Positions 13,709 to 49,352 of a stretch of 64,000 nt of DNA are shown here, piece by piece. The stretch is from Leptolyngbyaceae cyanobacterium C42_A2020_001 (lineage in GTDB: Bacteria > Cyanobacteriota > Cyanobacteriia > Leptolyngbyales > Leptolyngbyaceae), in the NCBI GenBank assembly GCA_015272515.1, contig JACYLN010000019.1, positions 1-64,000 of the forward strand. Direction: 5' to 3'. Every line of letters begins with the position of its first letter. Within the stretch, counting starts at the first letter, position 1. Below the pieces are notes generated by a model. That model saw only the letters and a program-made list of their open reading frames with translations. It was not told the origin of the DNA and searched no databases. The position numbers and the translations under genes were made by a program.

Positions 13709-13846
13709 AACGTATGAGTTGATGAAGCGGCTATGTTCAACAATTCATTTCAGCGCTCAAAAAAGTTGCGTCAATCTGGGGTGCATCGGGTAGGCTAGTG
13801 TGCGTAGAGTCAAGCAAACAAACGCTTGTACAGGTTCGAGGCGAGA

Positions 13847-15517
13847 ATGACCTACTCACCGAGCTATCAGCCATCTGGATATTACCAGCCCTCCATTCTA
13901 GAGTTGGCACGTCAAGGAAATTTTCGTGCGATCGCCTACTGGATTAACAGCATCCTGGGGCCGCAGGGAATTTACGTACAAACAGATATTGGACGAGCGG
14001 GTTGCTTGAATATCATGGTGAATTTCCCTCGCACCAAGCATCCGCAAGCGTGTATCAAGGCGCGGCAGCGGTTGGTGCGGCATATCTGCTATCGCCTCTG
14101 GACACTAAACTCAAAAGCGATTCGGGATGTGCGGATCATGGCGCGAGTGACCGGACAGCGAGAAATTCTTTGGCGGCAGTCGATTCGCATTAGCACCCCG
14201 GCAAATACTGGGCAAGCACTCCGCCGCAAAAAGCCTTTGAGTGCAAAAGCTCGGAATGTGAAACAAGAACGATTTCAACTTTTGCGGTCATTTTTAGTAG
14301 GCAGATTGGCGATCGCAGGCTTTCTTTTCTGCTATTGGATTATTTACCTGGAAGCCACCGGGCAGCAAACGGCTGAGCAACCGTCTGTTGCAGTTACGCC
14401 TGCTCCAGAACAGGTGCAAAACGTCAACCAAACCACTGCTCAAACATCTGAAAAAACCGCGATCGCCCACACCCGTCAACAACCGCAGAACTTAGTCTTT
14501 ACGGTGCCACCTCAATTTCAAGGGCAAATTATTCACGAAGCAACCCCTCCCGCCAATGCAGAGAAAGTCGTGGCACTCACATTTGATGATGGTCCCTGGA
14601 AACAAACCACTCAGCAAGTTTTAGACATCCTCAAGCAAAACAGCATCAAAGCTACGTTCTATTTTGTGGGGCAGGCAATTCAAGAAAACCCCGAAATGGC
14701 GAAGAAAGTGGTGGAAGAAGGGCACGCGGTTGGTAACCACACTTGGCAGCACCTGATGGACAATATGGATGCTGCCACCGCAGCTCAGGAATTGGGGAAT
14801 GCGGCTCGTCTGATTTATGAAGCAACGGGGGGAGTTCGTACCTATCTGATGCGCCCACCGGGCGGTAACCTTACCGGCGAGTTGGCAAATTATGCCAAAC
14901 AACAGGGCTACATGGTTACTATGTGGTCGGCCGATTCTCACGATTACTACGTTTCTGCGCCACTCATTGTGGACAATGTTCTTACCAATGTGAAGCCAGG
15001 TGGAATTGTGTTGATGCATGATGGTGGCGGCGATCGCAGCGCCACTGTTGAAGCATTACCTCAAGTTATTTCTGCTCTTCAACGCCAGGGCTACAAATTT
15101 GTCACCATCCCAGAACTGATGGAATTGCAGGCAAAATGGGCAGCGCAACAACCGCCCACGCCCAATCCAGGAGCCGAAGCCACACCTGCCAACCCTGCCG
15201 CTGATTCAGCCTATCCCAGCAATCCATCTCCCATGGAGCAGCCATCCGTGCAACCACCACCCACAGTTCAGCCACCAGCGGCGAGCGACAGTCAACCCGC
15301 TGTGGGCAATCCGTCTGCTGTTGAAACTCAGCCCACCATCCCTTCTGCACCTGCATTCACAACGCCAAGCGCTCCTGGAACCGAAATTCCCGCCGCCCCA
15401 CCGCTTACGCAGGAAAATGGCACCACTCCGGCTCACCCGTCTCCCTTGATGCAGGATGCTGGGACAATGCCCGTTGAGCCTGTTAGTGAAACTGCAAACG
15501 CCTTCCATGCCCCCTGA
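13847..15517 (+). CDS. Polysaccharide deacetylase with N-terminal repeat domain
   Basis: The 556-residue protein starts at ATG 13847; the ORF track's TTG is 7 codons earlier. It has four parts. Residues about 15-120 form an unnamed domain (SILELARQGNFRAIAYWINS...) also found in two other proteins of this window. A membrane segment follows (SFLVGRLAIAGFLFCYWIIYL, ~147-170). A NodB deacetylase domain occupies about 230-425: ALTFDDGPWK gives the metal Asp, NHTWQH the two His, MRPPGGNLT and MHDGGG the late motifs. The C-terminal 130 residues are Pro/Ala-rich and disordered. The enzyme domain lies outside the cytoplasm and should remove N- or O-acetyl groups from cell-wall or exopolysaccharide sugars. 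The next gene overlaps its end by 11 bp. Confidence 0.9.
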   Translation: MTYSPSYQPSGYYQPSILELARQGNFRAIAYWINSILGPQGIYVQTDIGRAGCLNIMVNFPRTKHPQACIKARQRLVRHICYRLWTLNSKAIRDVRIMARVTGQREILWRQSIRISTPANTGQALRRKKPLSAKARNVKQERFQLLRSFLVGRLAIAGFLFCYWIIYLEATGQQTAEQPSVAVTPAPEQVQNVNQTTAQTSEKTAIAHTRQQPQNLVFTVPPQFQGQIIHEATPPANAEKVVALTFDDGPWKQTTQQVLDILKQNSIKATFYFVGQAIQENPEMAKKVVEEGHAVGNHTWQHLMDNMDAATAAQELGNAARLIYEATGGVRTYLMRPPGGNLTGELANYAKQQGYMVTMWSADSHDYYVSAPLIVDNVLTNVKPGGIVLMHDGGGDRSATVEALPQVISALQRQGYKFVTIPELMELQAKWAAQQPPTPNPGAEATPANPAADSAYPSNPSPMEQPSVQPPPTVQPPAASDSQPAVGNPSAVETQPTIPSAPAFTTPSAPGTEIPAAPPLTQENGTTPAHPSPLMQDAGTMPVEPVSETANAFHAP

Positions 15518-36355: not shown

Positions 36356-39300
36356 TTACCTCGCCAGTTGCCAGGGAATCATTACGTCCTGCGCTAAACG
36401 TCGCGACACTTCGTAGGCTCCGTAACGATTGAGGTGGCTAGGGTCAGAAAAATAATTGGACTGGGTAGTCAATGCGCTACCCAAGTCGCGATAAATAAAT
36501 CCAGTTTGCGGAGCAAGACTGAGCATAAACTTTTGAAAAGCTTCCTCATGCTGTTTACGAACTGGATCAAGGTATTCCTGGGTTAGGGGTAGGTTCACAA
36601 ACACAAACGGAATCTGTTTGCTCTGCGCGTATTGAGCCAGGGCAACCATTGCCTCAGTTTGGGTGCCTTTTAGGTTGAAGGATTCGTAGTCGGAATCATA
36701 GTCGCCTGAAACCCGCGCATACTTCTGGTAGTAGGTGGTGGGATTGAATTGAACGGATAGCGGTAGGAAACCGTCGATATCTACCTGACTTTGCCCATCG
36801 GGAGCGATCGCGCCGCCTGTGGCTGCCGATGCTGAGGGTGAGGAGTCGATCAAGCTATCAGAAGTTGCCAGCATCGCTTCTGAGTTAGGCAATTGCTGTG
36901 GCAGCAAAGCAACTACCGAATCTCGTAGTTTAGTTTTGAGCCGATCGCGCTGAGCATAAATCGTGGAAATGGCAGCAAGGCGCTGATTGAGCGTTTCATT
37001 TAACTGCTGATAATAATTTGCTACTAATACAGGAGCAGATCGTGTAGTCGTTTTGGGTTGCCCATCCTGAGACTGGGATTGGGCATTGGGAGTTTGAGCA
37101 GCGATCGCACTAGGGATGGGAGGATTACCTGCCAACAGCAATTTATATCCTTCAGATGCAACCACGCCATTGTAGGTAATGTCTTGCCGACCACTGTTAA
37201 ACGCACGAGCACCATCGGCGAAAATAATCAGCTTCGGTAGTTTGTCCTGCGGTAACATCTGACGCACAACTAAATCAACTACCTGCACTGTTGCGCCATT
37301 AATCCCCAGATTGAACACCTGAATATCTTCATATCCCTGCTCTGCCAGCATTGCTTCTAGAGCAGCAGGATCTACACCTCGCAGTGCCCGCGAACTGCCC
37401 ACGATGAGCACATCGGGAGCACCATTAATTTCTAGATAACGGCGATATAGCTCGATTTGCCCATCAAGTTGACGGCTATTGAAACTGGGAAAGTCGTCAC
37501 CCCGATTGAGAATGGTTTCGGCTTTTGCTTGCAATGGGGAAGCCGCCAAAACGTCATTTGTCCCCGATGAGCCTTGTTTGGGGGCAACCAGGACTGTTTT
37601 ACCTGGCTGAGTAAAGGCTGAGCGATCAAAGGCGCGATCGCCATGAGGCTTCGTTTTTTGCAGTGAATAGTTGGGGAGTTGGACAGTGGGAGTGAGGGCA
37701 ACAGGAGCCGCTGGAGCACTCGTTTGGGCAGGAGTCAAGGTTTGCTGTCCGCTGTCACTTAACCGAACCCAATAACCTAAAAGCCAATCGGTTTGCAGCA
37801 CCAACAGAGCACCAATCGCGCTCCACAATAAGGCAATTTTCAACCCTTGCCGAGTTCCCGCTGGTGTAGCTGCATCTACCAAAGCCAAATTGGAGTTCAG
37901 GGTTGCTGCCTCCATCGGAATCACGAGCTGCGTCCGAATCAGAGATCGCTGCACCCCCTCAATCGCACGAGCATACAACCGTTTGAGTGAAGCATCCCAC
38001 CCCTCCTGGGGCAGTTCAGACCACAGCACAATTGCTCCAGCCGGTGCTAGCAATTCATCCACATGAGCATCCGAAGCAGCAAACTCAGGTGTCACCTCTG
38101 GCACCACTCGATTCCGCGAAACAAAATCTAACCCGTAATGCCAGAGCGGTTGCTTCTGCCCAGAACGCCGCCCATACAAACGCACACCTGACACCGAAGC
38201 GATTTGCAGTGGCTTCAAAAATCGCACAATAGCAGGAGCGACTGTATCCTGACGGGGGCAGTTGGGTGCATCTGTCATGATATGGAGCAAATCGCCCTTT
38301 TGCCGAATTTGGACTCGGATGCCCCCGGTTGCCAAAGTTGTATCGAGGTCTGAGTTGAGTAACCGGGTCAGCAAAAAGGTGATGGCTTGCAAATGTCCAT
38401 GGCGAGCCAAGTCCAGGGTTGTGAGGGCGTGTTCTGGCTCAACGGTTGCGGCAAGATCGAGCCAATAAACCCAGGCTGGGGCCGCATCGGGGGAGGTAGT
38501 TATAGAATTTTTGCCAGAAAGCCCGTAGATAGCAACTGATTGAATCCCTTGAGGGGCGAGGGTTTGCAACACCGGTGTAATCGTTGCGATCGCCGTTAGT
38601 TTATCGGGCACAGCATCACCAACCCCAGCACAGGAGAGGTGCAGTGTCGAGTCTTTCAACAAAGCCGTTAGCGAAATTGGATGGGGAGCCAGAGTGCGGT
38701 TCAGTAATCGCGAGATCGCCTGCACATCACCCCAGCGTGCCCACTCCTTCAAAATATCGTTAGGAGGAGTTAAATCGACTCGCAGGAGCCACTCAGGACG
38801 AGTTTCTCCCTGCACTTGCCCAAACACAATCGCGTCTCGAAACTGCTCCAATTCCAACTCGCGCAAACGTTGAGCAATGGGTTCTGCTAAAAGCGACGAG
38901 TCAGGTGTATAAGCCGATTCGCAAATCACGAGCAACCGTTTGGCTGAACTTTCCGCTTCTCCTTGATCCAGCTTTGCCCGCACCGCAACCCCCAACGCGC
39001 TCAATGCCTGACTCAAATAGCGCGCGATCGCTTCTGCATCTCCCTGCCTCGCCAGCCTCAAGATTGTAGAATCCTCTGCACCTGAGTCTGGGCAAGTGGT
39101 ATCATCGGCGTGCTGAGTAAGAAGAGAGTGACTCTCTACGGCTTGATTTGGTACAGCCACTCTAGCCTCTGTTGCTTGAGGAGAAGTAGAGTGACTATTC
39201 AAACTAATGGCTTTCGTCCAGGTAGGCTGTGTCTGTCCCAACTGCCGACCGTAAAGAATCACTCGATGAATTTGTGGCGCATCAGGTGGCAACACCGATT

Positions 39301-39535
39301 CTAATGATGAAGTAGCAAGTGCCTGCTTAAAGCTCAGCGCGATCGCGTGTTCATCCAGTTCGGCAACACTTTCGCACAAAATATGGAGGTTGTTTCCCCG
39401 TAGGCGAACTTTAGCATGGACTTGACTGGATTGAAGCACTTGGTGTATCCAGTGAAGCAGAGGTGCTCGGCTCACTGTTGACTCCTTTGCAGTCGCCTTG
39501 AGAGAGGTTTTTTGGGGGGTTCCGTCATTCAGCAT
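36356..39535 (-). CDS. DUF1574/SGNH-like protein with four N-terminal repeat domains
   Basis: The 1059-residue protein opens with four copies of a ~100-residue domain (about 24-115, 150-255, 260-360, 370-480). The key motif LARQGDAEAIARYLSQAL is followed by a beta-rich half ending like VYGQxxGExxPxWxxxxxL. A membrane segment follows (~560-585, LKIALLWSAIGALLVLQTDWLLG), then a Pro/Thr/Gln linker. The C-terminal 400 residues are the DUF1574 SGNH-like domain: DVLIVGSSRALRGVDP (nucleophile Ser), VFNLGINGATVQ and FSDPSHLNRYGAYEV (Asp-His). That arrangement resembles DltD/AlgX-type acyl-transfer or esterase domains acting on envelope polymers. The start is at ATG 39535. Confidence 0.85.
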   Translation of the reverse strand: MLNDGTPQKTSLKATAKESTVSRAPLLHWIHQVLQSSQVHAKVRLRGNNLHILCESVAELDEHAIALSFKQALATSSLESVLPPDAPQIHRVILYGRQLGQTQPTWTKAISLNSHSTSPQATEARVAVPNQAVESHSLLTQHADDTTCPDSGAEDSTILRLARQGDAEAIARYLSQALSALGVAVRAKLDQGEAESSAKRLLVICESAYTPDSSLLAEPIAQRLRELELEQFRDAIVFGQVQGETRPEWLLRVDLTPPNDILKEWARWGDVQAISRLLNRTLAPHPISLTALLKDSTLHLSCAGVGDAVPDKLTAIATITPVLQTLAPQGIQSVAIYGLSGKNSITTSPDAAPAWVYWLDLAATVEPEHALTTLDLARHGHLQAITFLLTRLLNSDLDTTLATGGIRVQIRQKGDLLHIMTDAPNCPRQDTVAPAIVRFLKPLQIASVSGVRLYGRRSGQKQPLWHYGLDFVSRNRVVPEVTPEFAASDAHVDELLAPAGAIVLWSELPQEGWDASLKRLYARAIEGVQRSLIRTQLVIPMEAATLNSNLALVDAATPAGTRQGLKIALLWSAIGALLVLQTDWLLGYWVRLSDSGQQTLTPAQTSAPAAPVALTPTVQLPNYSLQKTKPHGDRAFDRSAFTQPGKTVLVAPKQGSSGTNDVLAASPLQAKAETILNRGDDFPSFNSRQLDGQIELYRRYLEINGAPDVLIVGSSRALRGVDPAALEAMLAEQGYEDIQVFNLGINGATVQVVDLVVRQMLPQDKLPKLIIFADGARAFNSGRQDITYNGVVASEGYKLLLAGNPPIPSAIAAQTPNAQSQSQDGQPKTTTRSAPVLVANYYQQLNETLNQRLAAISTIYAQRDRLKTKLRDSVVALLPQQLPNSEAMLATSDSLIDSSPSASAATGGAIAPDGQSQVDIDGFLPLSVQFNPTTYYQKYARVSGDYDSDYESFNLKGTQTEAMVALAQYAQSKQIPFVFVNLPLTQEYLDPVRKQHEEAFQKFMLSLAPQTGFIYRDLGSALTTQSNYFSDPSHLNRYGAYEVSRRLAQDVMIPWQLAR

Positions 39536-48068: not shown

Positions 48069-48182
48069 CCGAGGGGTTCAGGTAGGTTCTGTCAGCAGCA
48101 AGAAAATTCTTTTCTGGAAAGGGCATTATGAAATCAGGCAAGGCAATTGCTCGATGCTGTTTCCTGATCCAGGCTCTTGACC

Positions 48183-49352
48183 ATGACTCAAGCCGATATT
48201 GTAGAACGGGCAAAACAAGGGGATGCTGGGGCGATCGCCACGTTGCTGAACCAGGGGTTTAAGAAGCGCGGCATTACAGCCATCGTGAAGTTAGATCAGC
48301 ACTGTCTCATGATTGAGCTACGGTCGTTGCAAGCAATCAATCAGCTAGCCGCGATCGCAGTCATTCAACAGGGCATGAATCATCTGAAGCCAGCCCACAT
48401 TCAAACTGTTTTGGTGTCTGGGCAAGCTGAGGATGGAGCAGATAACTGGATGGAATCTTTTACGCTGTCTCAGGAGGCAAACCCCGCTACCTCCACCTTT
48501 TCCCAAGTATCCCATCCCCCATCACCGCTCAACCACCAGCGTTCATCCAAAAACCTACTCTCCCAAAGGAAGCCCTCCCCGCGTTCTGCTGCATCATCCA
48601 AGTTATTAAGACCCCAGCAGATTTCTACCAGTGGCTGGGGTGCACTACTGACGGGGCTAATTCTGGCGATCGCCCTTTTTATCCTTAGTCCGCTTAAACT
48701 TTTGTTTCGCGGCTTTTTGGTGCTGGTGCATGAAGTTGGTCATGCCATTACTCATTGGGCGTTTGGTCGTCCTGCCATTCCCACGGTGAATATCTACTTT
48801 GGCGGCGGAGTTACGATCACATTTGGGCAGATCTGGTTGCTGAATGCCCTTATCTACCTGGCGATCGCGTATCTCGTTTATCGGCTACGAGCTTACCCAA
48901 GATTGCAAGGTGTAGTGGCGATCGCAACATTGCTATACACCTACTGCCTATTGACCCGGACAAACACCCTGTTATCAACCTTCATGGGGCATGGGATGGA
49001 GCTAATCGCGATCGTGGTTTGCCTGTTTCTGGCGACCAGTGGTTATTTTTGTCGCATCAAGGGCGATCGCACAATTTACGCCATGCTTGGCTTCTTCACA
49101 TGCTTCAGCGACACAGAGTTTTCCTGGCAATTGCTACACGACTCCGATTTTCGTTATCACTACGAAGACGGCATTGGCGGCATCATCGATAATGATTTTG
49201 TGATTTTAGCGAACGAGTATTTTGGCGTAAATCTATCTGCGATTGCTCAAGCATTTCTGCTTGCCTGCCTTGCCATGCCCGCGATCGCATTCTTGATGTG
49301 GCGCTATCAACCCTGGCTCCTTTCCGCCAGTCGTCAACTGTTAAAGTCGTAG
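48183..49352 (+). CDS. M50-like membrane metallopeptidase with N-terminal domain
   Basis: The start is ATG 48183. The protein has 389 residues. Residues 4-97 are one copy of the domain shared with the deacetylase and the DUF1574 protein (IVERAKQGDAGAIATLLNQG, IQTVLVSGQAEDGADNW). A Ser/Pro linker follows, then a polytopic membrane region with about eight helices. The motif LVLVHEVGHAITHWAF gives HExxH at residues 183-187, the zinc site of M50/site-2-protease-like enzymes. The usual later DG ligand motif is not obvious, so activity is uncertain. It converges with the hybrid kinase gene (3-bp gap). Confidence 0.75.
   Translation: MTQADIVERAKQGDAGAIATLLNQGFKKRGITAIVKLDQHCLMIELRSLQAINQLAAIAVIQQGMNHLKPAHIQTVLVSGQAEDGADNWMESFTLSQEANPATSTFSQVSHPPSPLNHQRSSKNLLSQRKPSPRSAASSKLLRPQQISTSGWGALLTGLILAIALFILSPLKLLFRGFLVLVHEVGHAITHWAFGRPAIPTVNIYFGGGVTITFGQIWLLNALIYLAIAYLVYRLRAYPRLQGVVAIATLLYTYCLLTRTNTLLSTFMGHGMELIAIVVCLFLATSGYFCRIKGDRTIYAMLGFFTCFSDTEFSWQLLHDSDFRYHYEDGIGGIIDNDFVILANEYFGVNLSAIAQAFLLACLAMPAIAFLMWRYQPWLLSASRQLLKS

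Follow-up and report, generated by a model that had tools for sequence, protein, structure and literature searches.

A recurrent, undescribed domain of cyanobacterial membrane proteins and its possible role as a docking or regulatory module

Introduction

Why should proteins as different as an SGNH-type enzyme, a polysaccharide deacetylase and an M50-like membrane protein carry the same unnamed domain, and what might it do there? The question is raised by a 64,000-nt stretch of DNA from Leptolyngbyaceae cyanobacterium C42_A2020_001 (contig JACYLN010000019.1), referred to below as the window. An initial annotation of the window had taken the domain for a common docking or sensing module of envelope enzymes, and we have examined its existence, fold, distribution and carriers.

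Results

Six copies of one homologous domain in three window proteins

Profile searches identified the unit, about 95 residues long, as one homologous domain, and the six copies in three proteins counted in the initial annotation were borne out (Table 1). An HMM built from 17 copies from other proteins, with no window copy in the model, scored copies 1–4 of the array in the 36.4-kb protein at 42.8, 53.8, 41.2 and 64.6 bits, the deacetylase copy at 51.9 bits and the M50-like copy at 73.5 bits (E 7e-15 to 6e-25 across the six), with a training set that is not wholly independent as its members were gathered via a model seeded on the window copies. Beyond these six the same HMM found no further stretch at E < 0.2 in the three proteins, and the best score among 3000 shuffled controls (1000 per window protein) was 7.3 bits. 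A lone array copy used as the query picked up one at another site of the genome, within an unrelated gene (E 1.9e-7). The possibility that HMM comparison might reveal the copies to be unrelated is thus answered by the recovery of all six with the held-out model; pairwise identity between the window copies is only about 20–30%. The motif by which the domain had been recognized proved to be loose, since copy 3 does not have the GExxPxW form and copy 1 is without AxxGD, and it is the terminal Trp that is invariant. As for the two single-copy proteins, the one at 13.8 kb matches Polysacc_deac_1 above the cut-off (E 9.4e-34) and the one at 48.2 kb matches Peptidase_M50B weakly (E 0.036; its 14.2 bits fall short of the cut-off of 26).

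Table 1. Coordinates of the domain copies and of the proteins that carry them in the window
Feature	Position	Strand	Evidence
Membrane-anchored polysaccharide deacetylase; likely start ATG 13847 (listed ORF 13826-15517 from TTG 13826)	13847..15517	+	ORF, Pfam
Domain copy, deacetylase N-terminus	13892..14191	+	profile
1059-aa protein: four domain copies, one membrane helix, low-complexity linker, SGNH-type hydrolase/acyltransferase domain	36356..39535	-	ORF, Pfam, alignment, model
SGNH-type catalytic domain; GSSR (S715), D1031, H1034	36359..37489	-	Pfam, alignment, fold
Helix 561-593 holding the predicted membrane span	37757..37855	-	prediction, model
Domain copy 4 of the array, residues ~373-472	38123..38422	-	profile, model
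Domain copy 3 of the array, residues ~264-361	38453..38761	-	profile, model
Domain copy 2 of the array, residues ~155-256	38771..39067	-	profile, model
Domain copy 1 of the array, residues ~30-113, partial (first helix and AxxGD missing)	39200..39460	-	profile, model
Polytopic M50-like membrane protein, HEVGH motif; likely start ATG 48183 (listed ORF 48177-49352 opens at TTG 48177)	48183..49352	+	ORF, weak Pfam
Domain copy, M50-like protein N-terminus; predicted structure pLDDT 92.5	48195..48467	+	profile, AlphaFold

The domain matches no family in Pfam, NCBIfam or the PDB and is probably confined to cyanobacteria

The domain had been called unnamed, and in the collections searched it is: sequence searches of Pfam, NCBIfam and the PDB gave no family match, the top PDB profile matches being designed helical proteins, and no family characterized there accounts for it. 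With 26 single copies as queries no Pfam-A family rose above chance level, and the complete match list held no family of effector-associated domains (EADs). In the open literature we found no account of the domain. A phage origin was rejected as no phage record matches and a search of viral structures was empty at E ≤ 0.001; a role in anti-phage defence was rejected as padloc matched only AAA+ and kinase carriers, none of them window proteins.

The genome to which the window belongs holds 12 copies in nine proteins, and up to about 20 matches occur per genome. The domain is carried by 34 of 36 well-assembled relatives sampled and, in a phylum-wide sample of 386 genomes, by 101, all of them within the class of the window; among the phylum-sample genomes listed, small ones of 1.7–2.3 Mb are without it. 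When one canonical copy was used to query 84,980 prokaryote species, 39 loci were confirmed, all cyanobacterial; a plasmid collection gave two matches, both cyanobacterial, and a phage collection gave none. Restriction to cyanobacteria is therefore likely, short of proven, as the species, plasmid and phage scans detect close relatives only. One copy (G104:C1:856709-856933) is broken by an in-frame TAA and probably belongs to a decayed gene. Within 36 kb (window 13.8-49.4 kb) lie three of the nine genes that carry the domain in this genome, a clustering that is probably accidental because in G002, a genome of the same genus assembled as a single contig, the matches are far apart.

A small alpha/beta fold with one invariant tryptophan

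Structure prediction gave a confident small alpha/beta fold. The AlphaFold model of the 48.2-kb copy, aligned with 26 diverse copies, has a mean pLDDT of 92.5 and consists of helix 3–11, helix 15–29, strand 31–38, strand 41–48, helix 54–68, strand 75–82 and strand 88–94, an order that recurs four times in the model of the 1059-aa protein, minus the first helix in copy 1. When this fold was compared with the PDB by Foldseek there were no matches at E ≤ 0.001, the best plausible ones being 4hlb (alpha-lytic-prodomain-like; TM 0.49, E 8e-3) and NusA2 (9f9u; TM 0.45), which suggests, as far as the model goes, a common small alpha/beta topology and no relationship. Folds of the SCOP d.52 type (KH type II, alpha-lytic protease prodomain-like) have an alpha-beta2-alpha-beta2 core, and the domain shares with them at most topology, as the 4hlb match comes without sequence support.

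Across 178 non-redundant copies the final Trp (Trp89), carried by a conserved hairpin YGR..G..P.W, is the sole invariant residue; the near-invariant positions (A10, G13, A17, I/L18, L42 and W89) are all small, hydrophobic or aromatic. Polar positions vary and no strictly conserved polar constellation of the catalytic-site type occurs among these copies, which together with the nature of the conserved core tells against a catalytic site or one for a polar ligand and favours a scaffold with a surface tuned to each partner. Surface positions are poorly conserved and apart from the hairpin there is no evident common interface. A nucleic-acid-binding, KH-like domain would belong to the same small alpha/beta class, and the Foldseek matches above and weak S3 matches given by our first profile point that way, but every one of these matches is below significance, a GxxG-type motif and a consistent basic patch are both absent from the 178 copies and the partners of the domain are not nucleic-acid enzymes, so that we regard this as very improbable.

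The four-copy array of the 36.4-kb protein is old

The full-length model of the 1059-aa protein, made from 20 orthologues, consists of four domains, helix 561–593, a disordered stretch and a two-part SGNH-type domain; as its overall confidence is low (pLDDT 63.4, pTM 0.43), the arrangement of the domains is not readable from it. S715, D1031 and H1034 are invariant in the 20 aligned sequences. The best fold matches of the outside domain are the SGNH proteins TesA, PAF-AH and DltD (prob 0.90-1.00, E only ~0.01), and Pfam DUF1574 scores 27.9, just below its cut-off of 29.1. The Ser-Asp-His residues and the SGNH fold are thus present, and hydrolase or acyl-transfer activity is putative. The protein shares GSSR ... 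SDPSH motifs with DUF1574/SGNH hydrolases and DltD but differs from them in the four-copy, probably cytoplasmic array in front.

The same genome also encodes an SGNH paralogue without the domain (L284, a 446-aa ORF at G000:C89:103600-105900) that has GSSR and DPSHLNRYG motifs and a signal-peptide-like start, and array-less versions in other genomes (L285, L286) have N-terminal export-like sequences. Such starts make it most likely that the SGNH enzyme of the 36.4-kb protein acts outside the cell, in which case the array would sit across the membrane helix, inside. The existence of these array-less forms also implies that catalysis is independent of the array, which would then be an optional add-on.

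In a tree of the 178 copies, which is based on few columns and has many unresolved forks, each array position groups with its counterparts in other genomes, with 1 to 4 changes per position as against about 14 to 20 when labels were shuffled. This indicates that the array was fixed early and is old and kept, with copies that are not interchangeable, and it rules out recent tandem duplication of the four copies. Array, membrane helix and the three residues S715, D1031 and H1034 are retained together in 19 orthologues. These findings bear on the idea that the domain is a passive spacer, or an adaptor for folding or export that has no specific partner. Linkers that vary freely and copies that diverge to <30% identity would suit such a role, but an invariant Trp, a near-invariant core over 178 copies and an array in which each position is conserved separately in 19 orthologues would not, and we give the idea only a slim chance.

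Most carriers place the domain in front of a membrane helix

A carrier set of 67 ORFs from eight genomes was assembled, and in 63 of these the domain is N-terminal. Membrane helices were called by a simple hydropathy scan, the same crude predictor being applied to carriers and control genes; a helix follows the domain in 51/67 carriers as against 12/35 other window genes (Fisher p 8e-5), or 53/67 as against 19/35 at a laxer helix threshold (p 0.012). The position before a membrane helix, described at first for the three window proteins, therefore holds in most carriers. The 14 of 67 that show no helix after the domain include a few fragments, C-terminal copies or predictor misses. Of 101 single-helix carriers, 74 have more K+R on the side of the helix where the domain lies and 16 have fewer (Wilcoxon p 2e-9). 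As this is the positive-inside pattern of an N-in protein, the domain probably lies on the cytoplasmic side, as had been supposed. Three carriers (L045, at C89:95890 of the window's own genome, L026 and L210) combine the domain with a single hydrophobic helix and an HTH-like C-terminus; a domain inside would place the HTH outside, so here either the helix does not cross the membrane or the topology is reversed.

The partners were labelled from Pfam and motifs, many carrier loci having been cut 1.5 kb from the match, and the TerB-like, ATPase-like and propeller labels are our own reading of the sequences. Extracytoplasmic parts seen are CapA/PGA_cap, polysaccharide deacetylase, SGNH, Pilin_GH and aspartyl protease domains, and M50-like and PrsW proteins are polytopic carriers. 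Signalling carriers comprise a Ser/Thr kinase with ankyrin repeats (L133), a kinase-domain-membrane protein (L198) and a CheW protein (L217). Two TerB-like/AAA+ ATPases (L046, L216) have a C-terminal copy, and further carriers are ATPase-like (L115, L116), EcsC-like, pentapeptide, ankyrin and TPR proteins and short stand-alone copies. The attachment to an outside enzyme put forward in the initial annotation is thus often found, and most carriers are envelope proteins, but the specificity for such enzymes did not stand: an envelope-only role is too narrow given the kinase, TerB-like/AAA+, CheW, pentapeptide, ankyrin, TPR and EcsC-like fusions. In many carriers a helical repeat, W..A...WQ.A..LM..VP......AQ....Y, recurs outside after the membrane helix (L044, L224, L189, L192, L218, L243, L244, L252 and L286), and it also combines with SGNH and CapA-like domains in other arrangements.

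Most carriers are dispersed in the genome and a few adjoin (tandem genes in G065, G007, G104 and G411), which means that there is no operon-encoded cognate, and the shared partner that was to be sought by co-occurrence was not found. All 84 genomes that have the SGNH core also have the domain, but this is not independent evidence because the SGNH core usually carries the domain itself.

Two further explanations can be weighed against the range of carriers. The first is a module that binds lipid or the membrane surface and, acting as BON domains do, lays proteins on the inner membrane face; the likeness in size and in mixed helix/strand topology, the preponderance of membrane proteins among the carriers and a slightly positive mean charge (+1.0 over 178 copies) are what it would lead one to expect. 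The spread of that charge is wide, however (s.d. 3.8), most carriers already own a membrane helix, soluble CheW and AAA+ carriers exist and profile–profile comparison with cyanobacterial BON domains gave a probability of 0.25%, all of which makes this explanation improbable. The second is a cytoplasmic sensor of small molecules that relays a metabolite or second-messenger signal through the membrane helix to the enzyme outside. Sensor domains typically serve many outputs with a single module, as is seen here with kinases, CheW, proteases and exopolysaccharide enzymes, and the conserved YGR..G..P.W hairpin with its invariant Trp could be read in the same sense; we nevertheless think it rather unlikely, since no polar pocket residues are conserved across the 178 copies, four diverged tandem copies kept as positional orthologues are unusual for a ligand sensor and single-pass attachment via long low-complexity linkers hampers signal transfer.

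Discussion

The reading that we prefer, and to which we give about an even chance, is that the domain is an undescribed, apparently cyanobacteria-restricted and non-catalytic docking or regulatory module, lineage-specific and promiscuous. Fusion of its copies to many unrelated partners is the usual mark of an interaction module. The domain would normally be the N-terminal, cytoplasmic end of membrane proteins of type II that have their enzymatic or structural part outside, and we infer docking, in which a shared cytoplasmic partner, or further copies of the domain itself, might hold each copy in place. Outside enzymes (SGNH hydrolase, polysaccharide deacetylase, CapA-like and pilin-like proteins, M50/PrsW peptidases) could in this way be positioned or switched from inside and coordinated with other carriers such as kinases, the AAA+ ATPase and CheW. 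The fixed series of four distinct copies in the 36.4-kb protein would then be a multivalent inner-side tail on a tethered SGNH enzyme. Counted against docking are the missing operon cognate, the 14/67 carriers without a helix, the HTH-like architecture and the weak surface conservation. More doubtful is a lineage-specific wiring from inside to outside in which the domain, through domain–domain contacts or a common hub, would couple kinases, an AAA+ ATPase and signalling of the CheW type to polysaccharide, pilus and protease enzymes outside the cytoplasm. Candidate hubs of the domain network are the AAA+ proteins L046 and L216 and the kinases L198 and L133.

The closest parallels are adaptor domains of other families. 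EAD1-EAD10 are small non-enzymatic domains that occur many to a genome on very diverse outputs, are abundant in some cyanobacteria and have been proposed to act by homotypic recruitment (Kaur et al. 2020, PMC7159879). Our domain is like them in its many copies per genome, its diverse non-homologous partners and its want of enzymatic features, but its copies match no EAD model in Pfam-A; a comparison of 80 full-length carriers with Pfam likewise showed no EAD among the top 25 families listed, and an EAD1 search of the window's own genome gave no match, the controls being equally silent. EADs sit on conflict effectors whereas the carriers described here are mainly membrane-anchored envelope proteins; the copies are mostly not beside a core NTPase bearing the same domain, although the TerB-like/AAA+ proteins L046 and L216 exist, and they tend to stay with their partner. 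Because there is no Pfam match, no consistent adjacent core partner and mostly membrane-anchored carriers, we have not filed the domain as an EAD, and the best reading, by analogy, is that it may work like effector-associated adaptor domains without being one of them.

Bacterial TRADD-N is a cyanobacteria-rich adaptor joined to variable modules, pentapeptide and NTPase among them (PMC8195603); its fold is RRM-like, its beta2-beta3 turn bears a conserved Ser and it lies between two globular domains (PMC8195603, PMC7159879). Variable fusion partners and cyanobacterial richness are shared, but membership is ruled out by the different order of elements, the absence of the conserved Ser and the N-terminal placement (63/67). 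BON (PF04972) is similar in size, in its mixture of strands and helices and in its association with the envelope; it too was ruled out, by the hhalign result given above and the absence of a Pfam match, and the BON carriers found are separate proteins from the carriers of the domain.

Dozens of cyanobacterial proteins concerned with capsule, cell wall, pili, proteolysis and signalling thus share a module that no searched library recognizes, and as Pfam, NCBIfam and the PDB are silent on it these carriers are annotated by their other half only or as hypothetical. Naming the domain would connect them, and one domain with one invariant Trp offers a concrete handle on the question of how, from within the cell, cyanobacteria position and regulate their extracytoplasmic enzymes.
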